Below are positions 15,036 through 60,293 of a stretch of 64,000 nucleotides of DNA, piece after piece. This stretch comes from Polyangiaceae bacterium (lineage in GTDB: Bacteria; Myxococcota_A; Polyangia; Polyangiales; Polyangiaceae), in NCBI GenBank assembly GCA_029261965.1, contig JAJDAH010000477.1:1-64000 (forward strand), given 5' to 3'. Position 1 is the first letter of the stretch. Every line of letters begins with the position of its first letter. The notes under the pieces are model-generated. The model worked only from the letters and a program-made list of their open reading frames with translations. It was not told where the DNA came from and ran no database searches. Both the position numbers and the translations under genes were made by a program.

Positions 15036-16145
15036 ATGCAGACGAACACGGTGGTCATTGGAGCGAGCGCCGCTGGGCTTGCCACCGCAGGGTGTTTGGC
15101 CCAAGCGGGCGTCGACCACGTGGTGCTGGAGCAACGAGCGCAAGTCGGCACTGCGTGGCGCAATCACTACGAGCGCCTTCATTTGCACACGACGCGCGAT
15201 CTCTCGGGGCTGCCACACCTACCTATGCCCGCGCACTTCCCGCGTTATCCGGCTCGCGAACAGGTGGTGGAATACCTCGAGGGCTACGCGGCTCGGCTCG
15301 GGATATCACCGCATTTCGGGGAAGCGGCGGTCTCCGTGCGTCGTGAGAACGGGACGTGGAAAACCGAAACAGAGAAAGAGGAGTACACCTCGGAAAACGT
15401 GGTCGTGGCGACGGGGTACACCCGCATTCCCCACCTGCCGAGCTGGCCCGGCCAAGGACAGTTCTTGGGCGATCTGATCCACAGCTCGCAATACAAAAAT
15501 GGTGACGCTTATCGCGGGAAGAACGTGCTCGTCGTGGGTTTCGGCAACTCCGGGGGCGAAATCGCCATCGATCTCGCCGAGCGTGGCGCCTTTCCGACGA
15601 TCGCCGTGCGGAGCCCGGTCAACGTCGTGCCCCGCGACTTCCTCGGAGTGCCGATCCTCGCCGTCGGAATCGTCATGGGCGCCGTGCCAACCAAGATCGC
15701 CGACGCGATGGTGAAACCGCTCGTCGCCGGCGTCGTGGGAGACATCGAGAAACTCGGGTTGCGCAAGCTGCCCTACGGACCAAACGAGCAGATTCGGGAG
15801 CACGGGCGGATCCCGCTGCTCGACATCGGCACCATCGATCTCATTCGTCAGGGAAAGATCGAGGTCGCCCCGGGTGTCCGGCGTTTCACCGAGACCGGCG
15901 CAATCTTCGAAGACGACACCGAGCGCAGATTCGCCGGCATCGTGCTCGCCACCGGGTACCGCCCAAAGCTGTCCGAATTTCTCCACGACGCACACCAGGT
16001 CACCGACGAGCTCGGCGTGCCCACCAAGAGTGGGCACGAAACGCTGCCGGGTTTGTACTTCTGCGGGTTCTACGTCTCGCCGACGGGCATGCTGAGAGAA
16101 ATCGGCATCGAGGCGGCGCGCATCGCTGAGCGGATAGCGAATTGA
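15036..16145 (+). CDS. Flavin-containing monooxygenase-like NAD(P)/FAD oxidoreductase
   Basis: A 369-residue flavoprotein of the FMO/CzcO/YUCCA-like group. The FAD Rossmann motif VVIGASAAGLATAG is at residues 6-19. The FMO fingerprint F-x-G-x-x-x-H-S-S-x-Y appears as FLGDLIHSSQY. The NADPH Rossmann motif VVGFGNSGGEIA is intact, and a late VLATGYRPKL closes the FAD site. It probably oxygenates a soft nucleophile (N or S) or a ketone; substrate unknown. The ATG at 15036 is chosen because it places the FAD motif at the proper distance; an upstream frame reaches 14955. The next gene starts in a TTGA overlap with its stop. Confidence 0.9.
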   Translation: MQTNTVVIGASAAGLATAGCLAQAGVDHVVLEQRAQVGTAWRNHYERLHLHTTRDLSGLPHLPMPAHFPRYPAREQVVEYLEGYAARLGISPHFGEAAVSVRRENGTWKTETEKEEYTSENVVVATGYTRIPHLPSWPGQGQFLGDLIHSSQYKNGDAYRGKNVLVVGFGNSGGEIAIDLAERGAFPTIAVRSPVNVVPRDFLGVPILAVGIVMGAVPTKIADAMVKPLVAGVVGDIEKLGLRKLPYGPNEQIREHGRIPLLDIGTIDLIRQGKIEVAPGVRRFTETGAIFEDDTERRFAGIVLATGYRPKLSEFLHDAHQVTDELGVPTKSGHETLPGLYFCGFYVSPTGMLREIGIEAARIAERIAN

Positions 16146-34633: not shown

Positions 34634-36304
34634 CTATTCTGCGGCTCGATCGCCCGCCTGGAGCGGCACCAGCGGCGCATAACCATGGGCGCGGACGAAG
34701 TTGATGTGCACTCCCCGACACGACGAATCGTGCACGCACTCTTTGCATCGACGACTCTTCGTCAGGAAGCGATCGGCGATGTAGCGCTGGGCATACTTGT
34801 TCATGTCCAGGCGCGCGTCAGCGCCGAGCATCCCGCCGTCGAGTCGAGTTTGACTCGCCTCAGGAATGCGCGAACCGAGGCACGGGGGAATGTTCTCCGT
34901 TTTTACTTCCGGAGGGAGGGTCGAAAGAAACGCGCGAAGGTCGGCCACGTCATTTTTTCGATTGAGCGTGACCCGGTCGTAGTAAGGCTGGGCCACCATG
35001 AGCCTCGGCGATATCGGCGAATGAGCGCGGATCCAGGCCTCAGTGTCACGGTTCAAGTACGCACACACCGCGAAATCACCGGGCACCCCCAAGAGGCGCT
35101 CTAGTTCTTCAGCCGTACTGGCGTAGCAGCGCCCGAGCTTCTTGCCGAAAACGAGGCCCGCGTCATTCAGGTGATCGGGGAGACCACCGTAGGCCGGTAG
35201 CTCGAGCCAGATCTGCTCGGCGTCAGCGCGATCCGCCAGCCGCTTCGCTGCGGGGTAGTCGTCCGCCACGACCCTCACCACTCGAGCTTTCGGTAGCTCG
35301 CCAGCCACCGGCGCGGGTTCTTCGAGCCGAAGCAACTCCACTTCGTCACGTTTCCGCTCGTCGATGGCTTCGTCCAGGGTGTCGCAGAGCTGATTCAGAT
35401 AGCAGTAGTGACACCGCTCGGGCTGACGGCAGGAGAGCTTCTTTCCAACCGACAGGAACTGGTCGAACTCCTCGCGTCGACCGCGCACCTCGTCGTTCAT
35501 CTTGTAGGGATCTTGGATGAGGTCCTCGAACCCCTCGGTGTAGGGCGGGGGGAATCGATTGAGCCAGATGTGAAGGTCGGGGCGCCGAGAGAACTCGAAC
35601 GCTTTTCGCAAAGCCTCTTCGTTGCCCTCGAGGTCGTAGAAAAGATGCTCTTTGGCCGGTCCCCAGGCATTGCCGAATGGAATGATGTGAAGCAGGTCGA
35701 ACTCCTGCACGCCCCATCCGACGAACGTCTCGAGCATCTCGGGGAGGTGCTTGACGTTCTGCTTGTTGATCACGATGTCGACATTGACGATGAATCTGCC
35801 GGAGGCGAGTGCCGCCTTTAGTCCGGCACTCTCTTGCTCGAACGCACCAGGGGTACCGACGAGCGCATCGTGCAACTTCGCGGTGTGTCCGTGGAGCGAG
35901 AACGTAATTTCGTCGAGTCCGTTCTCCGCCGCCGTTTGGAGAAACTCCGGGTACTGAAACATGCGCCCATTGGTGACGGTCTGCACCTTGGGATAGCCGG
36001 AGCGTTTCCCCAGCTTCACGAAGTCGAGAAAGTTGGGGTGCATCGTCGGCTCGCCGCCGCTCAAGATCAGGCGCTCGCACCCCTTCTTGCGTCCCTCGAT
36101 TATCTGCACCTTCACATCCATCACGCTGCGCATCGTTCCGTTGTGCGCGAGCGTATCGAGACAAAACGTGCAGTGATTGTTGCAGTCCATCGTCAGTCGG
36201 ACCCAGTTGCGTTTTTGGTGCGCGGCCTCTTCGTGGCTCTCGACCTTCTGCAGGTCGTCGTCGGCCGACGTCAGCGCGCCGAGTGCGTCGTGCTCACCAA
36301 TCAC
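34634..36304 (-). CDS. Radical SAM protein with two CX2CX5C auxiliary cysteine motifs
   Basis: A 556-residue radical SAM enzyme. From the GTG at 36304, the [4Fe-4S] motif CNNHCTFC is at residues 41-48, followed by LSGGEPTMHP and the TIM barrel (TVTNGRMFQ, SLHGHTAKLHD). After the barrel a first CX2CX5C motif (CHYCYLNQLC) follows near residue 320. The second half looks like a degenerate repeat of the barrel lacking CX3CX2C, and ends in a second CX2CX5C (CKECVHDSSCRG) resembling SPASM/twitch auxiliary clusters. GTG at 36304 forms a GTGA overlap with the methyltransferase stop; the frame reaches 36337. It probably modifies a protein or peptide substrate in the Hxs-like operon. Confidence 0.85.
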   Translation of the reverse strand: MIGEHDALGALTSADDDLQKVESHEEAAHQKRNWVRLTMDCNNHCTFCLDTLAHNGTMRSVMDVKVQIIEGRKKGCERLILSGGEPTMHPNFLDFVKLGKRSGYPKVQTVTNGRMFQYPEFLQTAAENGLDEITFSLHGHTAKLHDALVGTPGAFEQESAGLKAALASGRFIVNVDIVINKQNVKHLPEMLETFVGWGVQEFDLLHIIPFGNAWGPAKEHLFYDLEGNEEALRKAFEFSRRPDLHIWLNRFPPPYTEGFEDLIQDPYKMNDEVRGRREEFDQFLSVGKKLSCRQPERCHYCYLNQLCDTLDEAIDERKRDEVELLRLEEPAPVAGELPKARVVRVVADDYPAAKRLADRADAEQIWLELPAYGGLPDHLNDAGLVFGKKLGRCYASTAEELERLLGVPGDFAVCAYLNRDTEAWIRAHSPISPRLMVAQPYYDRVTLNRKNDVADLRAFLSTLPPEVKTENIPPCLGSRIPEASQTRLDGGMLGADARLDMNKYAQRYIADRFLTKSRRCKECVHDSSCRGVHINFVRAHGYAPLVPLQAGDRAAE

Positions 36305-37257
36305 GGGTGACCCACTTTCCGGTACTGGAGCAACCACTGGTTGCTCGTTTCTGGGCCCACGTCGCGGCGTTCTTCGAGCCGCAGCGGGAGCGCGTCACAA
36401 ACAGCATGTGCTTCGACCGACGAGTCGTTTCTGTAGTGCTCGAAAGCGCCGGGCCCGCCCTCAGCGCGGCTCGCGTGCTCCTTCGACCGAACGAGACCGA
36501 ACGCAACGTTGTCGGCGACCAGCAACCTCCCACCGGGTCGCAACAATTGCACGGCACGCATCATCGCCTCTCGAGGGTCGGGGAGGTGGTTGTAGCTGCG
36601 AAGCACGAGCACGTGGTCAAAGCTCTCAGGACCTTGGAGCAGATCCAAGACCGTACCGACATGATAGCGCGCCCACGGGTGACGCGATGCGAGCAGGCCA
36701 ACACGAGCCTCGTCAGGGTCGACACCCAGATAGGTCGCCTGGCCGGCTTCCACTTGCTGGGCAATATCAGCGACATACACGCCTTCCCCACAGCCAACGT
36801 CGAGCAGATCACCGTCTAATGTGCCAAGAATATCCCGAAGAAAACCGTCGTCGCGCTCGAAAGCGCCGCCGGCACTGAGCTGCCACGAGCCCCCACAGCC
36901 CGCGCGATGGGCGCAACGCTCGCACTCGCGCGAAAGCGTGAGCTTCTTCAGGTCTGCGACAAAGTCATCCGGTGCGAGCTTGCTCGAGACGTCCAAATAG
37001 ATCTGGCCGAGCGATTCTTTGATCTTCAGCAACTCTTCGTCGGAGAAATCGCTGGAGTCCGTACGAAACAAGCGCATGCGGTCGTGCAAGCGCAGGAAGA
37101 GCTCTCGCGAAACGTCGCTAGCGAATTCCCCGGTGGCAGGGAGCGGGCACCGGCTCTTCGGGGGCCGGGCAACATCCCGTCTAGAGACGAAGTTGAACGA
37201 ATTCGACCGCAGACGCGACACCCGTCCAGCGTAGCAGCTCCGCCATCTGGCCCGCAC
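36301..37257 (-). CDS. SAM-dependent methyltransferase with N-terminal CX2CX5C cysteine motif
   Basis: A protein of up to 318 residues. The C-terminal two-thirds is a class I methyltransferase: motif I LLDVGCGEGVYVADI, motif II GVDPDEARVGLL, and VLVLRSYNHLPDPREAM. The N-terminal part (DEELLKIKESLGQIYLDVSSKL) is helical and ends with CERCAHRAGCGG, a CX2CX5C motif like those in the four radical SAM proteins of this window; it may bind an iron-sulfur cluster. It overlaps the radical SAM gene (GTGA) and follows an HxsD-like gene by 15 bases. Start is uncertain: GTG at 37257 or GTG at 37221. Confidence 0.8.
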   Translation of the reverse strand: MRARWRSCYAGRVSRLRSNSFNFVSRRDVARPPKSRCPLPATGEFASDVSRELFLRLHDRMRLFRTDSSDFSDEELLKIKESLGQIYLDVSSKLAPDDFVADLKKLTLSRECERCAHRAGCGGSWQLSAGGAFERDDGFLRDILGTLDGDLLDVGCGEGVYVADIAQQVEAGQATYLGVDPDEARVGLLASRHPWARYHVGTVLDLLQGPESFDHVLVLRSYNHLPDPREAMMRAVQLLRPGGRLLVADNVAFGLVRSKEHASRAEGGPGAFEHYRNDSSVEAHAVCDALPLRLEERRDVGPETSNQWLLQYRKVGHP

Positions 37258-37272
37258 CGCCCCCGGCGCGCG

Positions 37273-37494
37273 CTACTTCTCGGTGCCTCGTTCTTCGACC
37301 GTAGCGCCTAGCGCATAGTTGCCGAGCTCGTCGGCGATGGCGTCCGCTGGAAAGTCGCCGGTGGGCGTAAACCGCACGATGTACTCCTCGTCGGTCTTTT
37401 CGAGATCGAAGTCGGCGTACTCGCCGTAGACCTTGACCGCGGAATCGATGGCGAAACCGGAATACAGATCCGTTTTGAACCGAAGCTCGGTCAC
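37273..37494 (-). CDS. HxsD-like small protein (second copy)
   Basis: A 73-residue protein. The pattern LYSGFAIDSAVKVYGEYADF followed by DELGNYALGATVEE resembles the HxsD family of the His-Xaa-Ser system (Y-S-x-x-A-I-x-x-A-x-x-Y and a closing L-x-N-Y-x-L motif). HxsD proteins accompany radical SAM enzymes HxsB/HxsC and are thought to assist peptide modification. The GTG start overlaps the stop of the upstream HxsD-like gene (GTGA), and the methyltransferase follows 15 bases downstream. Assignment is by motif only. Confidence 0.6.
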   Translation of the reverse strand: MTELRFKTDLYSGFAIDSAVKVYGEYADFDLEKTDEEYIVRFTPTGDFPADAIADELGNYALGATVEERGTEK

Positions 37495-37997
37495 CCGCCC
37501 TCTTTCGACTTGCTCTCGCCATCTGTGAGTAGCTCTTCGGACGCCTGCTTCGCCTCTTCAGCGTCCTTCTTCGTGTCCTTCTTCTTGTACTTGTCTTCCC
37601 AGCTCATCGCGATGCCGAGCGGGTCCTCGAACGCTGTGTCCTCGTCGATGTCCATGCCCAGAAGGTCGTCGAGACCCGGGGGACCGGCGGCACCCGCCAT
37701 AGCCTGGGTCGACACCTGCTCGATCAAGCGCCGATTCTCTTCGATGATCAGACGGCGCCACGCCTGACCGAGGAGCTCGTTCTCGAACTCGCCGGCGAGA
37801 TCGTCCAGGGATGGTTTGACATCCGGTTTGAGCCGCAACCGGACAGAGAGTCGACCTTCCTTGGGGCGGTCGAGCCACACGTAGCACCGGTCGATGAAAA
37901 TGTACGCAGCGCCGTATACCGCGTCCTTCGGATAGAGCGACTCGTCGAGCTCGAGGATGAGCGTCCCCTCGGCTTTCGACGTCTCGAGATCGGTCAT
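37491..37997 (-). CDS. HxsD-like protein with Lys/Asp-rich tail (first copy)
   Basis: A 168-residue cytosolic protein. Residues about 10-95 follow the HxsD pattern: ESLYPKDAVYGAAYIFIDRCYVWL and a later GEFENELLGQAWRRLI with a following helix ending in QAM (family core N-E-L-L-x-Q-x-x-R). The C-terminal 60 residues are charged and low-complexity (KKKDTKKDAEEAK). The ATG at 37997 is used; the frame continues to 38228 without family resemblance. It lies 74 bases downstream of the MopE-like gene and is coupled by GTGA overlap to the second HxsD-like gene. Confidence 0.6.
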   Translation of the reverse strand: MTDLETSKAEGTLILELDESLYPKDAVYGAAYIFIDRCYVWLDRPKEGRLSVRLRLKPDVKPSLDDLAGEFENELLGQAWRRLIIEENRRLIEQVSTQAMAGAAGPPGLDDLLGMDIDEDTAFEDPLGIAMSWEDKYKKKDTKKDAEEAKQASEELLTDGESKSKEGG

Positions 37998-38071
37998 GGG
38001 CAAGAAGTCATGACCCTCCGCCGCCGGGCCGTCAAGCGGCTCGAACGAACAATCGACCCGCCTGCTGCAGA

Positions 38072-39772
38072 CTATTGCGTGATCGAAACACTGAACGGCG
38101 AACATGCGCCGCCGCCGATGCTTTCGCGAGTGATCTGCACGATGATCGTGCTGGGAAGCGACGAGTCGTTGGTGCAGGCACCGTTCGACCCGCCACAGCC
38201 GGCGTTCAGCGTGAAGTCCATGCTCCACGTCGCAATGTCCGAGCCCGTGCCGCTACCACTGCGAGATGCGGGCTGGGGACAAGCCATGAACTGACCACCG
38301 CCGCATCCGTTCAGCACGTCCATTCGGTACTCCGACGCCCCTTGAACGAGCTGAATCGTCGGTTGGTTGGAAACACCTGGCACCGGGGGATTGAAGTTGA
38401 CGCGGGCGTACACCGACTCGCCGACGGTCACGATCTGGCCGGCAAAGGCGCCGACGCCCGGGGTTGCCGGGTTGCCGCAGGTGGTGGATGCCGGAGAGGT
38501 CGCGCAGGTCGTGCCTTCGCAGCCGTTGCACACGTTGCCATCAGCATTGACACGACCGGGCTCGCAGCCGTCGATGACGCACGTCGCGGACGAGCAACGC
38601 ATGGCGGTCACGAAAGGCAGCGTGCCACCCGGCACGCCACAGGTCCGAGCGCATAGCTCTATTGCCGGTCCGTTGTCCGGAGTGCCGTCGCAATCTTCGT
38701 CGACGCCGTCGCAAGACTCCGCCGTGGGCGTGCTCGTCTGCTGACAACCACCAGTACCGAAGGAGCACGTCGTCAACCCGGCGGAGCAAATGCCGTCGAG
38801 GCCGGTCGTGCAGGGTTGCCCGACGACCTTGGCAGGCTCGTCGATGCCCGTGGTGCAGTCATTGTCGAGCCCGTCACAGATCTCGATGCTCGCCATCACG
38901 TTCTGCACGCAACTGAGCTGGCCGAACTCACAATTGAATGTACCCGCCGCGCAGACTCCTTCGAGACCCGTAGAGCAAGGCAGAGCTCCGCCAGGATTGC
39001 CTTCATCGGCCTGGCCGTCACAGTTGTCATCGAGCCCGTTGCAGGTCTCCATCTGCGGCATGAAGTTGGCCGTGCAGCTGATCGTTCCTGCTGCGCACGA
39101 GGTCGTGCCCGCACTGCAGATGCCCATTTGCCCGGTCGAACAAGACATGCCAGCGCCGGGATCACCCTCGTCGATTCCGCCGTTGCAGTTGTCGTCGAGG
39201 CCGTTGCACGTCTCCGGTGCCGGAGAGTTCACCTGCACGCATTGGATAGTCCCGCTCACACACGATGTCTCGCCGTCGCGACAGACGCCGGACGTGGCTG
39301 GAACGGTGCAAGACTGACCCCCGCCAGGGTTGCCTTCGTCGATCTGTCCGTTCGCGTTGTTGTCCAGACCGTCGCAAATCTCGCCGTTGCCCGCATCTGA
39401 GCCGGCAACACCCGCGCCTCCAGCGGCGCCCGCGACTCCCGCTGCGCCGGCGCTGGCGCCCGCACCGGCGACTCCGCCAGTTCCAGGACCGCCCCCCGTG
39501 TTCGGACCGCCCCCAGTGCTCGGGCCACCGCCCGTGCTCGGAGCGCCGCCGGCGCCTGGCGCGCCACCCGTCACGATACCCCCACCAGCACCGCCGGTCT
39601 GGCCGCCGCCATCGGTGGTCCCTCCGGTGCCACCGGCACTCGTCGAGCCGCCGGTGTTGGCGAAGGTGCCGCCGGAGCCGCCTCCGGCGCAGGCCGCGGC
39701 GCCGAACGCGCCGAGCGCGCCGACCACCGTGAACAGTCCAAGATTTCGTGCCTTCAGATTTGAGCGAGCCAT
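38072..39772 (-). CDS. MopE-like Cys-rich lipoprotein
   Basis: A 566-residue exported protein. Lipobox AAACAGG (Cys28) follows a hydrophobic core. A Gly/Ala/Thr-rich linker spans about residues 30-125. Five tandem MopE-type modules follow (EICDGLDNNANGQIDEG, ETCNGLDDNCNGGIDEG, ETCNGLDDNCDGQADEG and similar), with Asp-rich loops and Cys; such modules are annotated as metal-binding. The C-terminal about 170 residues form a beta-rich domain with disulfide-prone cysteines (CEGTTCATS; NGCGGG). It sits in the minus-strand operon between a radical SAM gene and HxsD-like genes, so it is a candidate substrate of the modifying enzymes. Confidence 0.85.
   Translation of the reverse strand: MARSNLKARNLGLFTVVGALGAFGAAACAGGGSGGTFANTGGSTSAGGTGGTTDGGGQTGGAGGGIVTGGAPGAGGAPSTGGGPSTGGGPNTGGGPGTGGVAGAGASAGAAGVAGAAGGAGVAGSDAGNGEICDGLDNNANGQIDEGNPGGGQSCTVPATSGVCRDGETSCVSGTIQCVQVNSPAPETCNGLDDNCNGGIDEGDPGAGMSCSTGQMGICSAGTTSCAAGTISCTANFMPQMETCNGLDDNCDGQADEGNPGGALPCSTGLEGVCAAGTFNCEFGQLSCVQNVMASIEICDGLDNDCTTGIDEPAKVVGQPCTTGLDGICSAGLTTCSFGTGGCQQTSTPTAESCDGVDEDCDGTPDNGPAIELCARTCGVPGGTLPFVTAMRCSSATCVIDGCEPGRVNADGNVCNGCEGTTCATSPASTTCGNPATPGVGAFAGQIVTVGESVYARVNFNPPVPGVSNQPTIQLVQGASEYRMDVLNGCGGGQFMACPQPASRSGSGTGSDIATWSMDFTLNAGCGGSNGACTNDSSLPSTIIVQITRESIGGGACSPFSVSITQ
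38665..39390 (-). repeat. Five tandem MopE-type modules
   Basis: Five copies of a module with core C-[DN]-G-[LV]-D-[DEN]-[DN]-C-x-G-x-x-D, spaced about 45-50 codons, each followed by a G-x-x-C-x-x-G-x-x-x-C segment. The calcium-like Asp loops recall MopE/thrombospondin-3 type repeats. Confidence 0.8.
39391..39690 (-). repeat. Gly/Ala/Thr-rich linker coding repeat
   Basis: Low-complexity coding DNA with repeats of a GGxxGTGG-type unit encodes TGGGPSTGGGPNTGGGP and GAAGVAGAAGG-like copies. It separates the lipid anchor from the MopE modules. Confidence 0.75.
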
Positions 39773-39834
39773 CGCGTCCTACCTCGCTAGCGTGCGTGGG
39801 AATGCACTAGCCAATCCAAGAAAGTGGGGGAGTG

Positions 39835-40641
39835 TCATGGGGCGACTGCCCCCGCTGAGTGCGTCGGCACCGCGTCGATGACCCGGAGATGGCGCACGTC
39901 GTCGTAGGCCTGACCGTTTTGGGGCCGAACGTTTGCTTCGACCGTTCCGAGGTCGGCGAACCAATCGTGGGCGGGGTCGGCACTCGCCGCCGTCCCCACC
40001 ACATACGGGAGACCCAGCGTTTGCGCGAGACCAAGCGCTTGGCCGAGCGCGGAACGAACCATGACTTTGTTCGGAACGACGGCCCGAGCGTTGCGGGCGG
40101 CCGACCCATGAGGGCGGGCAAGCTCGAAACGGACCGCTCGGGCGCCGAGGGTGTGCGCCAGCCGGACCATCTCCCCGAGATGCCGAAAATTGGAGCGGGT
40201 CACCACGGTCGTGATCGCGAACGGCAGGTGGGCGGCCCGAGCGCGGCGCAAACCGAGCACCGTTTGCTTGAAGCTGCCGACCACTCCGGTGTGGTGGTCC
40301 TGCATGTCGACGGTCGTGCCGTGCAACGACACGTCGAAGCTGGCGCCTTCCAAGCTGTTCAAATAGGAACGATTGGCGAGACGGCGCCCATTCGTTTGCA
40401 CGAGCACGTGAGCCGCACCGCGGCTTCGGGCTCGTGCGAGCAATTCCCCGAGGTCGTCGAGCAGGGTCGGCTCACCGCCAACGAAAGCGACGGTGTCGGC
40501 GGAGCTGGTGTCGATCGGCAGAGCGTCGACCTCGGCTTCGATACTGGACCGAGGCTTGGGTTCCGAGGTGCTCCTCAGCCGCCCCTGCGCGCAGAAAACG
40601 CAGTGGTTGTTGCATTGGAGCGTGACTTCGACGACGTGCAC
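39835..40641 (-). CDS. Small radical SAM protein without SPASM domain
   Basis: A 268-residue radical SAM enzyme. The cluster motif CNNHCVFC is at residues 10-17, then VGGEPTLLDD, VQTNGRRLANR and a TIM-barrel to about residue 200. There is no cysteine after the cluster motif, so no auxiliary cluster is carried on this chain. The closest look-alike in the window is the second module of the double radical SAM protein at 51151. The start is GTG at 40641. It lies 44 bases after the Tat-protein gene and 62 before the MopE-like gene on the same strand. Confidence 0.85.
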   Translation of the reverse strand: MHVVEVTLQCNNHCVFCAQGRLRSTSEPKPRSSIEAEVDALPIDTSSADTVAFVGGEPTLLDDLGELLARARSRGAAHVLVQTNGRRLANRSYLNSLEGASFDVSLHGTTVDMQDHHTGVVGSFKQTVLGLRRARAAHLPFAITTVVTRSNFRHLGEMVRLAHTLGARAVRFELARPHGSAARNARAVVPNKVMVRSALGQALGLAQTLGLPYVVGTAASADPAHDWFADLGTVEANVRPQNGQAYDDVRHLRVIDAVPTHSAGAVAP

Positions 40642-40685
40642 TCTTTAGGGGTTCCGGTTGGAATGTCTCGAGAGAGAAAAGCCGA

Positions 40686-41234
40686 TCAGACGTGAACGCG
40701 GGCGGCTGACAGCCGTTCCGCCAAGGTGAGGTACTCGCTGAGGTCGACGTGTTGCTCGTTCGAACGGATGACGTCGGCAAGCGCCATCGCCACCAACCCG
40801 TGGTCTTCCACGGTCGCCGTAGTTCCATCGCCGCGGTTGGCGACGAACACCTCGAAGTACTCCGAGCGGCCCGGGGCAGCAGCAGCGCCGGGAGAGTCGT
40901 CCCGAGCGCAGATGTCGAGTTGGAACGTTTGCTTGGATGCATCGCTCACGATCACCGACGCGGCGCCGTTCTCCGTCGCAATCACCCGTTCGACCGTCCA
41001 AAGGTCGAGCCGGGAACCCGGGGCGAGCGGCGCGACGAGCTTGTCGGCCGTAGAGAGCGGGGCGGGAGTGGGCGCGGTGCGGCGGGGCGACGACTTGGCG
41101 CCCCGACGCTGCGCTTTGGAACCACCCTTGGTCTGAGCGGCCCGAGCGACCTTCGACACCGAGGTGGCGGTACCAACCACGCTCGCGCTCAAGGCAGCAA
41201 CAACGGTTCGACGGCTAAGATTTCTGCGCTTCAT
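40686..41234 (-). CDS. Tat-exported protein of unknown family, candidate substrate of the radical SAM operon
   Basis: A 182-residue protein with a twin-arginine signal: NLSRRTVVAALSASVVG, ending at VARAAQ. A basic Ser/Arg/Lys linker follows, then a small folded domain (RLDLWTVERVIATENGAASV; DKQTFQL-like strand FQLDICARDD; SEYFEVFVANRGDG; VEDHGLVAMALADVIRSNE). Tat export implies that it folds or receives a cofactor/modification in the cytoplasm first. It is the first gene of the minus-strand radical SAM run. No known family is recognised. A Shine-Dalgarno (GGAGG) lies eight bases before the ATG. Confidence 0.75.
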   Translation of the reverse strand: MKRRNLSRRTVVAALSASVVGTATSVSKVARAAQTKGGSKAQRRGAKSSPRRTAPTPAPLSTADKLVAPLAPGSRLDLWTVERVIATENGAASVIVSDASKQTFQLDICARDDSPGAAAAPGRSEYFEVFVANRGDGTTATVEDHGLVAMALADVIRSNEQHVDLSEYLTLAERLSAARVHV

Positions 41235-51150: not shown

Positions 51151-53526
51151 ATGGCTCGAGTCGCGGTGGTTTTCCCACCGCTGCGCGTCGCGCGCGACTT
51201 CATCGACTACCCGTACTTCGCCGACCTCGGCGCGGTGCAGGCGGCGGCCCTCCTGCGTGCCCAGGGCCACGACGTGCAGCTCGTTGACGCCCTCGCCCGC
51301 CCGGGGGCCGAGCTCGCACCATTGGACGGGGACTACGTTCGGCTCGGCACGACCATCGACGACGTCGTGGGGGCCACCGAAAACGCCGACGTGTTCGTCC
51401 TCGCTTTCACGCCGTTTCATCGGCCGCCGGAACGTGAGCCCTTGCTCGCCGAGTTGCTCGAGAAGCTCCGCGCACACGGCGACGCCTCGATCGTGCTCGC
51501 CGACCTCTACCAAACGGGCCAACACGTCGTCGACGTGCCCTCGACCGCCTTGCTCGCCACCTACCCGGAAGTCGACGCCGTCGTTCGGTACGAGGCCGAG
51601 GGGGTGCTGCCGGCGCTCGTCGCAGAGCTGGCCGCTACCGGCCGCCCAAGTCGCCCGCGGGTCGAAATTGGCCACGAATTCCCCAAGCTCGACGAGCTCC
51701 CGTTGCCCGCGTGGGATCTCACCGACCCGGCGGCCTATTGGCGCTTTCACGAGAGCGTCATGGTCGGGCTCGGTCGCCCCGAGTGGGCATTCCCGATCGA
51801 CCGACGCAGCATGCCCATGCTGTCGACTCGAGGTTGTCCGTTTCGGTGCGCCCACTGCTCTTCGAACGCGGGCCTGCCGGCGGGCACGCCAAAAAACCAG
51901 CGGCGCCACTCGGTCGAGTACTTGGGCCGCTACCTGGACATGTTGAAGGCGCTTGGCGCCGAGCGAGTGCACCTGCTCGACGAGCTCGCCAACGTCAACG
52001 AGCGCCACTTCGACCGGTTGCTCGAAATGCTCGAAGAGCGCCAGCTGGCCTTCGAAATCCCCAACGGGGTGCGTGCCGACTACGTGCTCGAGAAACATCT
52101 CCGAGCGATGAAGGGGCGGCTCACCACGTTGAGCGTCAGCGCCGAGAGCGGCGTGCAACGGGTGGTCGACGAAGTGGTCGGCAAAGACCTCGATCTGGCC
52201 GCGATCCTCACGGTCGCCGAGCGCGCCCAGACGGCTGACGTGCCTCTACTCGTTCACTTCATGATCGGGCTGCCGGGCGAGACCAAGAACGAGATCAACG
52301 GGACGCTCGACTTCGCGATGAAGCTGCACGACGAGTTCGATGCCTGGCCGAGCGTGCAGTTCGCCACCCCGCTGCCCGGCACTCGCTTGGCGAAAATGGC
52401 CAGCGAGAGCGCGAGAGTGCTGCCGACGGTGCAGGACTGGGGGCCGCATTTCCAGAAGGCGCCGACCATCGCCACGCAGGACTTCACGCTCGAGGATCTC
52501 GAAGTCTTCAAGTCCACGTTCGACATGCGCTTCGCGGCGTCCGGCGGACCGAAAAAGGTGATCATGAACGTCACCTACAAGTGCAACAATCGGTGCACGT
52601 TCTGCGCCGTGGGCACGCGCACGCAGTTCGACGGTGATTTCGACCAGCAGAAGGAGCTATTGGTCAAGTATCGCAAACGCGGAGTCGAGCTACTCGACTA
52701 CGACGGCGGCGAGCCGACCCTCAACCCGAGGTTGTTTCAGCTCATCAAATTCGCTCGCCGCATCGGCTACGAAAAAGTCAACGTCACGACGAACGGACGA
52801 ATGGCGCAATACGAAGAGTACGCCCAGAAGCTCGTCACCTCGGGAATCACGACGCTTCTGTTCAGCATTCACGGGCCGAACCGATGGATTCATGCGGCAA
52901 ACGTCGGAGTACCCGAGGCATTCGACCAGACGCTCGACGGCGTGCGAAATTGCCGACGCCTCGCGCCCGACAGCGTCGAACTCGGTGCCAACATCACGCT
53001 GACGAAAAGCAACTACAAACACATCGGTGAGACCGTCGAGCTCATCCACAGCCTCGGTCTCGGATGGCTCAACGTGCAGTTCTTGACACCTTTCGGACGC
53101 GCGACGAACACCGTGAATCCGGACACCCAAGCGGCAGCCGACGCGACCATGCGCGCCATCGACGAGTGGAAGGACCGCGTGAGGTTCTGCGTGATCAATC
53201 TGCCCTGGTGCTACATGCCCGGCTACGAAGAGTTCTTGATGGGCGACTTGCTCAAGCTCGAGCGGCACATGCTGTTCGTGAACAACGAAGAAGTGAACTT
53301 GTTCGAGTACTTGCGAGAGCAGCGCGAGTACACCGAGCCATGCGGAGGATGCACACGCCGCGTCTTCTGTGGCGGGTTTTATCGAATGGACGACGTGCCC
53401 GAGCCCGAATGGTTGATCGAACCCGAGGATCTCGTCCGCCCCATCGAGACCGACGGCCTGACAGCGCACCCGCGGCCCGAAAGGCCCCGGGGCGCGCAGC
53501 TCAAAGTCGTTGCCGACGCCGAATGA
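51151..53526 (+). CDS. Fusion of two radical SAM modules with B12-binding-like N-terminus
   Basis: A 791-residue protein. Residues 1-170 resemble a B12-binding domain (VVFPPLRVARDFIDYPYFADLG, DVFVLAFTPFHRPPEREP), though no clear DxHxxG was seen. The first radical SAM module has CPFRCAHC at 229-236 and HFMIGLPGETKNEI. The second has CNNRCTFC at 478-485, DYDGGEPTLNP and a SPASM-like CGGCTRRVFC starting at 731. Two complete active-site motifs on one chain are rare. The second module is most like the radical SAM proteins of the 34-41 kb operon. The next gene starts in an ATGA overlap. Start ATG at 51151. Confidence 0.85.
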   Translation: MARVAVVFPPLRVARDFIDYPYFADLGAVQAAALLRAQGHDVQLVDALARPGAELAPLDGDYVRLGTTIDDVVGATENADVFVLAFTPFHRPPEREPLLAELLEKLRAHGDASIVLADLYQTGQHVVDVPSTALLATYPEVDAVVRYEAEGVLPALVAELAATGRPSRPRVEIGHEFPKLDELPLPAWDLTDPAAYWRFHESVMVGLGRPEWAFPIDRRSMPMLSTRGCPFRCAHCSSNAGLPAGTPKNQRRHSVEYLGRYLDMLKALGAERVHLLDELANVNERHFDRLLEMLEERQLAFEIPNGVRADYVLEKHLRAMKGRLTTLSVSAESGVQRVVDEVVGKDLDLAAILTVAERAQTADVPLLVHFMIGLPGETKNEINGTLDFAMKLHDEFDAWPSVQFATPLPGTRLAKMASESARVLPTVQDWGPHFQKAPTIATQDFTLEDLEVFKSTFDMRFAASGGPKKVIMNVTYKCNNRCTFCAVGTRTQFDGDFDQQKELLVKYRKRGVELLDYDGGEPTLNPRLFQLIKFARRIGYEKVNVTTNGRMAQYEEYAQKLVTSGITTLLFSIHGPNRWIHAANVGVPEAFDQTLDGVRNCRRLAPDSVELGANITLTKSNYKHIGETVELIHSLGLGWLNVQFLTPFGRATNTVNPDTQAAADATMRAIDEWKDRVRFCVINLPWCYMPGYEEFLMGDLLKLERHMLFVNNEEVNLFEYLREQREYTEPCGGCTRRVFCGGFYRMDDVPEPEWLIEPEDLVRPIETDGLTAHPRPERPRGAQLKVVADAE

Positions 53527-54794
53527 GCCAGCAAACCATGGCCCAGAAGGTCCTCGCTCGGGCGGCGGGGCGAAACAGCACCCAGGCCGGGGAATACGTC
53601 ACGGCGAAAGTCGATCGCATCATGGCTCACGAGGCGTTCAGCTTGTGTGTCATGAAGCTGATGAAGATCGGCGTGAACCAGGTCTTCGATCCCGAAAAAG
53701 TAATCGTCATTCTCGATCACTATTTTCCCGCGCCAACCCAGGAGATGGCGGCGGGACACTTGATGGCGCGCAGCCTCGCAAAGTCCCTGGGCATCAAACA
53801 TTTTCTCGGACACGCAGGCATTTGCCACCAGGTCTTGACCGAGCGCGGCTTGGTGCGCCCGGGACACCTGGTGTTCGGCACCGACTCGCACAGCACGACC
53901 TACGGCGCCATCGGTGCTGCTGGCACGGGGCTCGGACTCACCGAAATCAGCTACGCGATGGCCACCGGCGAGCTCTGGCTCCAGGTGCCGCCGACCATTC
54001 GCTTCGTGCTCGAGGGCCAGGCCCGCGCAGGCTTGATGAGCAAAGACGTCATCCTGCACATCGCCGGAAAGCACGGCACCGAGGCGGCCCAGTATCGGTC
54101 GATCGAGTTCGCCGGCGACGCGGCGGAACGCATGACCATCGCCAGCCGGATGACCATGAGTAACATGGGCGTCGAAATCGGCGCCAAATTCGCGTTCTTC
54201 GCCGCCGACTCTACCACTTGCGACTACCTGTTCGAGCGTACGGGAGAGAACGTAGAGCCGTTCGGCCCGGACACGGATCCCGAATACGAAGAGACGCACA
54301 TCGTCGACGTCGCCGAGCTCGAGCCGCAAGTGGCCCGACCCCACAGCCCTGGCAACGTGGCAAAAGTGAGCGACCTTCGCGACGTGCCGGTGGCGCAAGC
54401 TTTCATCGGCTCGTGCACGAACGCACGGCTCGAAGACTTCGAGGTCGCGGCGAAGGTGCTCGCGGGCAGGCGGGTTCACGCCGAGACACGATTGATCGTC
54501 ACCCCGGCATCCCAGGACGTTCACCTCGAAGCAACCAAGGCCGGCTTTGTTCAAACCCTGCTCGAAGCCGGGGCCCACGTCACCGCGTCGGGGTGCGGCG
54601 CCTGTCCCGGCGGTCACAACGGAGTCGTCGGTCCCGGTGAAGCCTGCATCTCTTCGACCAACCGTAACTTCCGCGGTCGAATGGGCAGCACGGAGGCCGA
54701 GATCTATCTCGCTTCCCCCGCGACGGTTGCCGCCTCGGCCATCACGGGCAAAATCACCGATCCGCGAGACTTCTGGGACGGAACGACGCTGTGA
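53523..54794 (+). CDS. LeuC-like aconitase family large subunit (isopropylmalate/homoaconitate type)
   Basis: A 423-residue [4Fe-4S] hydro-lyase large subunit of the short LeuC/HacA type. Features: HYFPAPTQEM, FGTDSHSTTYGAIGA, and the cluster cysteines in IGSCTNARLED and ASGCGACPGGHNG. It would isomerise 3-isopropylmalate, homocitrate or (R)-citramalate-type substrates with LeuD encoded next door. It overlaps the radical SAM fusion gene by ATGA, which is unusual: leuCD are normally with leuA/leuB. Substrate cannot be decided from the sequence alone. Confidence 0.9.
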   Translation: MSQQTMAQKVLARAAGRNSTQAGEYVTAKVDRIMAHEAFSLCVMKLMKIGVNQVFDPEKVIVILDHYFPAPTQEMAAGHLMARSLAKSLGIKHFLGHAGICHQVLTERGLVRPGHLVFGTDSHSTTYGAIGAAGTGLGLTEISYAMATGELWLQVPPTIRFVLEGQARAGLMSKDVILHIAGKHGTEAAQYRSIEFAGDAAERMTIASRMTMSNMGVEIGAKFAFFAADSTTCDYLFERTGENVEPFGPDTDPEYEETHIVDVAELEPQVARPHSPGNVAKVSDLRDVPVAQAFIGSCTNARLEDFEVAAKVLAGRRVHAETRLIVTPASQDVHLEATKAGFVQTLLEAGAHVTASGCGACPGGHNGVVGPGEACISSTNRNFRGRMGSTEAEIYLASPATVAASAITGKITDPRDFWDGTTL

Positions 54795-55306
54795 GCGCGA
54801 ACGAAACCCATCGCCGCCGAGGCAAAGTCTGGGTGTTCGGTGACGACGTCGACACCGATCAAATGGCGCCCTTCGCGACCCTGACGTCTGGGTGGGACGA
54901 AATAAAAAAGGCGATGTTTCCCGAGCGTCGCGACTTCGTCGACAGCGTGCAACCCGGTGACATCATCGTCGCAGGAAGGAACTGGGGTTGCGGCTCGAGC
55001 CGCGAGCACGCCCCGGAGAACCTGAAGAAGCTCGGCGTCAGCGCCGTTCTCGCCGAGTCCTTCGCGCGGATCTATTTCCGAAATTGCATTGCCATTGCGT
55101 TCCCGAACGCGGCCTGCCCTGGCATCACCCAGGCGGTCGACGCCCGAGACGAGGTCGAGCTCGACCTCGAGACCGGCATCGTGAAAAACCTCACGCGGAG
55201 CAGGCAGCTCCGGGCAAACCCCTACACCAAGGAGATGCTCGACATCGTCGCCGAAGGCGGGCTGATGAACCGGCTCGCCGCGCAAATCGCGGCGAGCAAT
55301 CGTTGA
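54791..55306 (+). CDS. LeuD-like aconitase family small subunit
   Basis: A 171-residue small subunit with the family motifs [16 protein letters not shown] (about 12-27), [20 protein letters not shown] (about 63-82) and [16 protein letters not shown]. The YLRT-like specificity loop is not clear, so isopropylmalate versus homoaconitate cannot be separated. It overlaps the large-subunit stop by ATGA, so the two are made in equal amounts. A short cytochrome c-like remnant lies just downstream. Confidence 0.9.
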
Positions 55307-59357: not shown

Positions 59358-60293
59358 TCAGTCGCTGGCTACGGGGCGCACTTCCTCGGCGCCGAAGATT
59401 TCGACGTAGTCGGAGCGCAAGCCCGGGCATTCGTCGACGTAGCGGCACTGCCCACACGGCGGGGGTTTGACACCACCGGTGAGCCGCGAGTCGACGAGGT
59501 CGAAGCAATCGTCAGGCGTGACGACGCGCACGCCGTCGGCACCGGGGTGATGCACGTGAGCTTCGTCGCCGGGGAGAAAGCACCGTGGAACGTGAAGCGA
59601 GTGCACCTCGTAGCCTCCGGCGCGGGCCGCCCTGAACACTCGGCGAAGAACCGGCGCAACATCGCTGATTTTCGGCAGCTGATCCACGTTCGCGACGTTC
59701 TTGTCAGTGAGCGAGACGAGCCAGAGTCGAAATCGTCGGAGGCCCTGCCCGACGAGCGACGCGACCCATTTTTCGAGCGAAGGCAGCGTGTCGTTCTTCA
59801 GAATCAGGTCGGCTACAGGGTCGAGGTCGCGCTCGATCAGGTGGGCCAACGCCTCGCGCCGAAGCTTCGCGGTGCCGGTGAGCTGCACGGTGCGTTCGTA
59901 CGCCCCATCGTCGAACGCGTGGAACGACACGTGGAAGAGGTTGGCCCCGGCCCCGACGAGATGGTCGAGGTATGGTGCGTGCGCGTAGCGCAAGCCGTTC
60001 GACTGGATTTTTATTTCGCTGAAGCCGCGGCCCTTGGCGAAGCGCACGAGTTTGGGCAAGTCGTCGAAAATCGTGGGCTCTCCTCCAGTGAAGGCGATTC
60101 GCGTCCAGCCTCGGTCGGCGGCCTGCTCTATCTCCCGCGCGATGACACGCGTGTCCATGGCGCGCCGGCGCATCTCGTCGGTAATCGTGCAGTAGGTGCA
60201 CTTGAGGTTGCAGTCGTAGCCGAGCACGACGTCGAGCAGAGGCACCCGGGCAGTCTGACACCCGCGCGGACGAGAAGTGTCGATTTCACGCAA
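59358..60293 (-). CDS. Radical SAM/SPASM-like protein
   Basis: A 311-residue enzyme. The cluster motif CNLKCTYC is at residues 28-35, then FTGGEPTIFDD, IQSNGLRY and a TIM barrel. The C-terminus has CGQCRYVDEC, a CX2CX5C motif shared with three other proteins in this window, likely holding an auxiliary cluster. The open frame begins with TTG at 60293; a GTG at 60245 would give a start 16 residues later and looks equally good. The gene is followed by the alpha/beta hydrolase. Confidence 0.85.
   Translation of the reverse strand: MREIDTSRPRGCQTARVPLLDVVLGYDCNLKCTYCTITDEMRRRAMDTRVIAREIEQAADRGWTRIAFTGGEPTIFDDLPKLVRFAKGRGFSEIKIQSNGLRYAHAPYLDHLVGAGANLFHVSFHAFDDGAYERTVQLTGTAKLRREALAHLIERDLDPVADLILKNDTLPSLEKWVASLVGQGLRRFRLWLVSLTDKNVANVDQLPKISDVAPVLRRVFRAARAGGYEVHSLHVPRCFLPGDEAHVHHPGADGVRVVTPDDCFDLVDSRLTGGVKPPPCGQCRYVDECPGLRSDYVEIFGAEEVRPVASD

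Follow-up and report, generated by a model that had tools for sequence, protein, structure and literature searches.

The 64,000-nucleotide stretch analysed here (the window; Polyangiaceae bacterium, assembly GCA_029261965.1 of 9.59 Mb, contig JAJDAH010000477.1; genome G000 in our labelling) carries a cassette of seven minus-strand genes, encoding a protein with a twin-arginine translocation (Tat) signal, a MopE-like lipoprotein, two HxsD-like proteins, a methyltransferase (MT) and two radical S-adenosylmethionine (SAM) proteins, rSAM1 and rSAM2. The cassette most probably provides the auxiliary enzymes and binding proteins of a single HxsA4-type His-Xaa-Ser pathway for a ribosomally synthesized and post-translationally modified peptide (RiPP), the genes of which are scattered in this lineage. 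The likely substrate is the repeat peptide HxsA4, and not the MopE-like lipoprotein. Sequence evidence for this reading comes from family identity, from a kept gene order and co-inheritance, from the HxsA4 and HxsB genes found in the genome, and from relatives in which the cluster is intact. The Hxs system was reportedly defined by Haft and Basu, with the models TIGR03976 (HxsD), TIGR03977 (HxsC), TIGR03978 (HxsB) and TIGR03979 (HxsA). For the HxsA4 branch, the NCBIfam models are HxsA4 (NF038313), HxsC4 (NF038332) and HxsD_rel (NF038315). The genes of the window assigned to the pathway, with product lengths in amino acids (aa), are:

40686..41234, minus strand: Tat-signal protein, 182 aa; twin-arginine pair kept, family not in Pfam or NCBIfam
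39835..40641, minus strand: small radical SAM protein rSAM2, 268 aa; related to HxsC/HxsC4, with scores far under the cut-offs
38072..39772, minus strand: MopE-like (PF11617) repeat lipoprotein, 566 aa; accessory, absent from some cassettes
37491..37997, minus strand: HxsD, 168 aa; TIGR03976, with a predicted Rpb11/RpoL-like fold
37273..37494, minus strand: HxsD_rel (HxsD-like), 73 aa; NF038315, 4-base overlap with HxsD
36301..37221, minus strand: SAM methyltransferase (MT) with an N-terminal CX2CX5C domain, 306 aa
34634..36304, minus strand: rSAM1, 556 aa; a radical SAM domain, followed by a half that carries two C...CX2CX5C cluster motifs
51151..53526, plus strand: tandem radical SAM protein, 791 aa; assigned to the pathway since it co-occurs with it and, in relatives, stands next to rSAM1

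HxsA4 precursor and HxsB

A preliminary description of this DNA had reported that no His-Xaa-Ser repeat was present. This holds for the 64-kb window, where no open reading frame (ORF) with such repeats was found, but not for the genome. HxsA4 is encoded on another contig, at C455:12056-12298 (98.8 bits, cut-off 55), and HxsB, a SPASM radical SAM protein, at C110:9222-10622 (557 bits, cut-off 370), each of them occurring once above its cut-off. HxsA4 of G000 has 90 aa; its leader (...SFSRSARGMLSKSEDAVIEKARDNC...PAQHC) is conserved and is followed by (SHG)n and, as the last residue, Trp. Read from a GTG start that is kept in seven relatives, it begins (M)PPKQNGSGKLPSFSRSARGMLSKSEDAVIEKARDNCDEVPAPGDADGTFPAQHC and continues with SHG repeats to GSW. 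All 30 complete sequences in the set of loci compared for this end in SHG[SQ]W, and by inspection HxsA4 has no evident signal peptide. The number of repeats varies from about 7 to 50 or more across genomes, and two precursors lie side by side at L199:388-1779, L109:3620-4267 and L183:11513-12488.

With HxsD, HxsD_rel, HxsB and HxsA4 all above curated cut-offs, G000 resembles the HxsA4 branch of the Hxs systems. It differs in that no window protein tested passes the HxsC or HxsC4 model, and in that the HxsA, HxsB and HxsD genes are not clustered, being spread over at least three contigs, whereas they are clustered in L239, L209 and others. The Tat protein, rSAM1, the methyltransferase derived from radical SAM fusions and the tandem radical SAM protein are the components added here. 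Synteny of the HxsB and HxsA4 loci across the family shows that the scattering is a trait of the group rather than a product of assembly. Contamination or a split assembly was considered as its cause and rejected, since both loci are flanked on both sides by unrelated housekeeping genes and the long-contig genomes G103, G052 and G283 are equally scattered. The neighbour of HxsB is the same pgpA-like gene in each of G000, G052 and G116, and in genomes of family f1 hemL- and glyS-like genes are found near HxsA4. Inspection of the upstream regions by eye revealed no obvious promoter motif common to the three loci.

Conserved gene order and intact clusters

HxsD_rel is present in about a third (97) of the 284 sampled genomes of the phylum. 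The order Tat, rSAM2, (MopE), HxsD, HxsD_rel, MT, rSAM1 is far beyond chance, because it is kept among genomes whose proteins are mostly 40-76% identical. Its recurrence in divergent members of the window's family agrees with the conserved neighbourhood that the preliminary description had proposed to look for. Of the three observations named there as refuting, two, a lack of HxsD matches and a lack of neighbourhood conservation, are contradicted by the data. In this family a ClpB-like gene precedes Tat, and neither HxsB nor HxsA4 is linked. Most lineages have, after HxsD and HxsD_rel, a protein of about 500 aa and a short SHG-repeat peptide, which in the examples scanned are HxsB (TIGR03978, 545 bits) and HxsA4 (NF038313), respectively. 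The most complete picture comes from L239, of an uncultured Archangium sp., where MT, HxsD, HxsD_rel, HxsB, HxsA4, rSAM2, Tat, rSAM1 and the tandem radical SAM gene lie within about 15 kb. The same families occur within about 17 kb in L209, a Myxococcaceae contig. HxsA4 is also linked to rSAM1, Tat and a radical SAM-MT fusion in L104 (genome G169), and to rSAM1 and Tat in L116 (G140). The intact cluster of L209, which has the Tat protein, also contains a TatA-like gene (15730-15987, minus strand). A different arrangement is seen on contig C96 of G067 (L115), with HxsB and a short HxsD but no HxsD_rel, Tat, rSAM1, MT or tandem radical SAM gene, apparently another Hxs subtype.

The tandem radical SAM gene lies about 10 kb from the cassette, with housekeeping genes between, and falls outside the range covered by the preliminary description. 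Its product is a homologue of the protein adjoining rSAM1 in many genomes, and has two radical SAM domains and a weakly B12-binding-like N-terminus, which did not reach the PF02310 cut-off (19.2 bits against 32.1). Directly 3' of it, a gene pair (53538-55306, plus strand) resembles the large and small subunits of 3-isopropylmalate dehydratase.

Co-inheritance of the components

Co-occurrence was examined in 41 genomes, 21 with HxsD_rel and 20 without. HxsB was found in 21/21 positive and 1/20 negative genomes, MT and the tandem radical SAM protein each in 21/21 and 0/20, and Tat and rSAM1 each in 20/21 and 0/20. Families f1 and f2 both include positive and negative genomes, and the components switch together in each. 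Over the 284 genomes, Tat and HxsD_rel occur together in 73, Tat only in four, HxsD_rel only in 24 and neither in 183 (Fisher 2.7e-41, a value that overstates independence because the genomes are related). In 25 of the 73 genomes with both, the two genes are not neighbours. Together, the physical clusters, the co-inheritance in the 41 genomes and the Tat/HxsD_rel association tie the scattered genes into one pathway.

Proteins of the cassette

The seven minus-strand ORFs are all at the positions first reported. The two HxsD-like proteins exceed curated cut-offs, HxsD with TIGR03976 (55.0 bits, cut-off 50) and HxsD_rel with NF038315 (71.1 bits, cut-off 41), each as the sole match in the genome. 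The MopE-like lipoprotein has the repeats of MopE (PF11617) proteins, five in number (72.8 bits, cut-off 27). The Tat signal is supported as well: of the 26 homologues listed, 25 carry a twin-arginine pair close to the N-terminus, and the exception is lipoprotein-like by inspection. The CX2CX5C motifs noticed in MT (one) and rSAM1 (two) are invariant in the homologue alignments (C112/C115/C121 in MT; C309/C312/C318 and C531/C534/C540 in rSAM1), where rSAM1 keeps an invariant CxxxCxxC site in addition to its two C...CX2CX5C cluster sites. The last four genes had been described as overlapping or within 15 bases of each other. The HxsD/HxsD_rel and MT/rSAM1 pairs do overlap, but MT probably starts at 37221 rather than 37257, since its homologues begin at RSNSF, and with this start the gap between MT and HxsD_rel is about 50 bases. 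The start of rSAM1 is probably 36304, with a 4-base overlap with the MT stop.

The HxsC4 and HxsC models are the top scorers for rSAM1 and rSAM2, yet far under their cut-offs, and both proteins are regarded as related to HxsC without being filed as such. Window protein P0007 scored 99.8 bits with HxsC (cut-off 267.9) and 124.6 with HxsC4 (cut-off 500), and P0002 scored 80.7 and 86.2, respectively, both under the cut-offs. MT corresponds to the C-terminal half of radical SAM-methyltransferase fusions in relatives. That rSAM2 is the split-off radical SAM half of such a fusion is unsupported, as it forms a clade of its own and G198 carries both. An anti-phage role was also considered and set aside, PADLOC giving only superfamily-level viperin and methyltransferase matches. 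Radical SAM genes were also observed at two other places in this genome: a stand-alone protein of 295 aa in the window (59358-60245, minus strand), and a dense set of radical SAM or radical SAM-like genes, several of them tandem, among phytanoyl-CoA-dioxygenase-like and other oxygenase-like genes (G000:C272:1-40000; L011, L012), which looks like another unexplored modification cluster.

The HxsD model has high confidence over residues 1-100, with two strands, a helix, two strands and a long helix. Compared with the PDB, the top matches are the polymerase subunits Rpb11 and RpoL (E 4.9e-4 to 1e-2), a moderate match with template modelling (TM) scores by target mostly of 0.40-0.59; the HxsD sequence matched no PDB chain. 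The resemblance concerns the fold of HxsD only, with no polymerase context. By hhalign, HxsD_rel is a homologue of HxsD (E 5.9e-9), and together with the Rpb11-like fold predicted for the latter this makes a heterodimer of the Rpb3-Rpb11 type plausible. The C-terminal tail of HxsD, DPLGIAxxWE, is near-invariant and may bind a partner.

Substrates, partners and alternative readings

The alternative that survives best divides the cassette between two substrates. HxsD, HxsD_rel, rSAM1, MT and the tandem radical SAM protein would act on HxsA4, while rSAM2 would modify the Tat protein, which in turn would bind or use the mature peptide outside the cytoplasm. Tat export requires a folded, often cofactor-bearing protein. 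In 18 of 40 loci the Tat gene is immediately followed by rSAM2, which makes an action of rSAM2 on the Tat protein possible, and in L104 and L108 the two stay together although HxsD is not linked to them. However, the majority of Tat genes lack a neighbouring rSAM2, and many of those that lack it adjoin HxsD instead. Moreover, the Tat domain (residues 60-182, modelled with a predicted local distance difference test score of about 97 and without a fold match in the PDB) has no conserved reactive residue, that is, no invariant Cys, His, Trp or Tyr in the family. On balance we consider this division unlikely.

The preliminary description had favoured a divergent Hxs system, independent of HxsA4, with the Tat protein and/or the MopE-like lipoprotein as a new substrate. 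The frequent Tat-rSAM2 adjacency speaks for it, as does the count of MopE-like genes, 13 in about 1.06 Mb near Hxs genes against two in about 1.06 Mb of control DNA. It is nonetheless improbable in the light of the HxsA4 and HxsB genes of the same genome, co-inherited with the cassette, and of the intact clusters of other myxobacteria, where cassette families stand directly beside HxsA4. The lack of invariant reactive residues also counts against the Tat protein as a substrate, and the cassettes of G103, G116 and G251 have no MopE gene. The MopE-like lipoprotein is treated here as an accessory component, modestly enriched near Hxs genes. A large MopE-repeat protein is also encoded 2.3 kb from the HxsA4 gene of the window's genome (L085:12136-15906, minus strand).

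That HxsA4, HxsB and the cassette co-occur merely because larger myxobacterial genomes retain more accessory genes is hardly credible. Within the window's family and order, genomes with HxsD_rel do have the greater mean size. Yet ten negative genomes measure 5.2-8.5 Mb and have none of the four cassette families tested, so that size alone is no explanation, and all or most of these families are present in positive genomes down to 5.3-5.7 Mb. In addition, presence and absence are coupled within f1 and f2, and one physical cluster exists.

Several points weigh against the assignment of the cassette to a single HxsA4-type pathway. Besides the relatedness of the genomes behind the Fisher values and the modest TM-scores of the HxsD model, the Tat profile was built largely from neighbours of HxsD, and no HxsC or HxsC4 equivalog above cut-off was found among the window proteins tested. 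As rSAM2 is frequently paired with Tat, some of the cassette could have the Tat protein as its target instead. Finally, the assignment is drawn from sequences and models.

Proposed mechanism

Three-residue cyclophane (triceptide) maturases such as MscB, HaaB and YhhB are known to form His-Ala, His-Arg and Phe-Ser links between residues i and i+2 (PMC11002830). The Hxs pathway has in common with them a SPASM radical SAM maturase and an i/i+2 spacing, which His-Xaa-Ser fits. It differs in its many tandem repeats and extra enzymes. HxsB itself is not a member of the GrrM/OscB, YhhB or AmcB families, scoring 52.5 against 310, 49.3 against 445 and 55.8 against 425 bits, respectively. Since the known three-residue cyclophane enzymes join i to i+2, the most likely guess, by analogy, is a His(i)-Ser(i+2) cross-link across each HGS unit.

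In the proposed scheme, HxsD and HxsD_rel would form an Rpb11/Rpb3-like heterodimer that binds the HxsA4 leader, the maturases, or both. HxsB would act on every His-Gly-Ser unit, the likeliest change being a bond between His(i) and Ser(i+2), and rSAM1, rSAM2, MT and the tandem radical SAM protein would add further changes, methylation among these. The Tat protein, exported in folded form, would carry, receive or anchor the product outside the cytoplasm; because HxsA4 has no evident signal peptide, the Tat protein suggests itself as the one that moves or receives this product. A bolder version of this scheme, which we put forward tentatively and as more doubtful than not, is a Myxococcota-wide pathway of at least nine genes, in which a long (His-Gly-Ser)n peptide would be both cross-linked, one repeat after another, and methylated by at least four radical SAM enzymes, held by the Rpb11-like HxsD/HxsD_rel heterodimer and delivered by a dedicated family of Tat-exported carriers. 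Exported repeat peptides that carry multiple modifications of this kind would be a new class.

Significance

To our knowledge, Hxs systems have been recognized from sequence for more than ten years without a product, and a search of the open literature on them returned almost nothing. What is new here is the scattering, which includes the precursor, and a set of at least four components inherited together with the pathway, one of them a twin-arginine family outside Pfam and NCBIfam. Four further families are tied in this way to the HxsA4 branch: the Tat-exported protein, rSAM1 as a tandem radical SAM protein, the methyltransferase, which in many cases is part of a fusion with a radical SAM domain, and the second tandem radical SAM protein (51151-53526). 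The outcome is a list of genes for reconstitution that is likely to be full, and for HxsD a fold and a pairing are proposed. The case also shows that the genes of a RiPP pathway need not lie together but can be dispersed along a chromosome. Finders that rely on gene neighbourhood then overlook the precursor or label the cluster 'substrate unknown', which is what occurred with this one.

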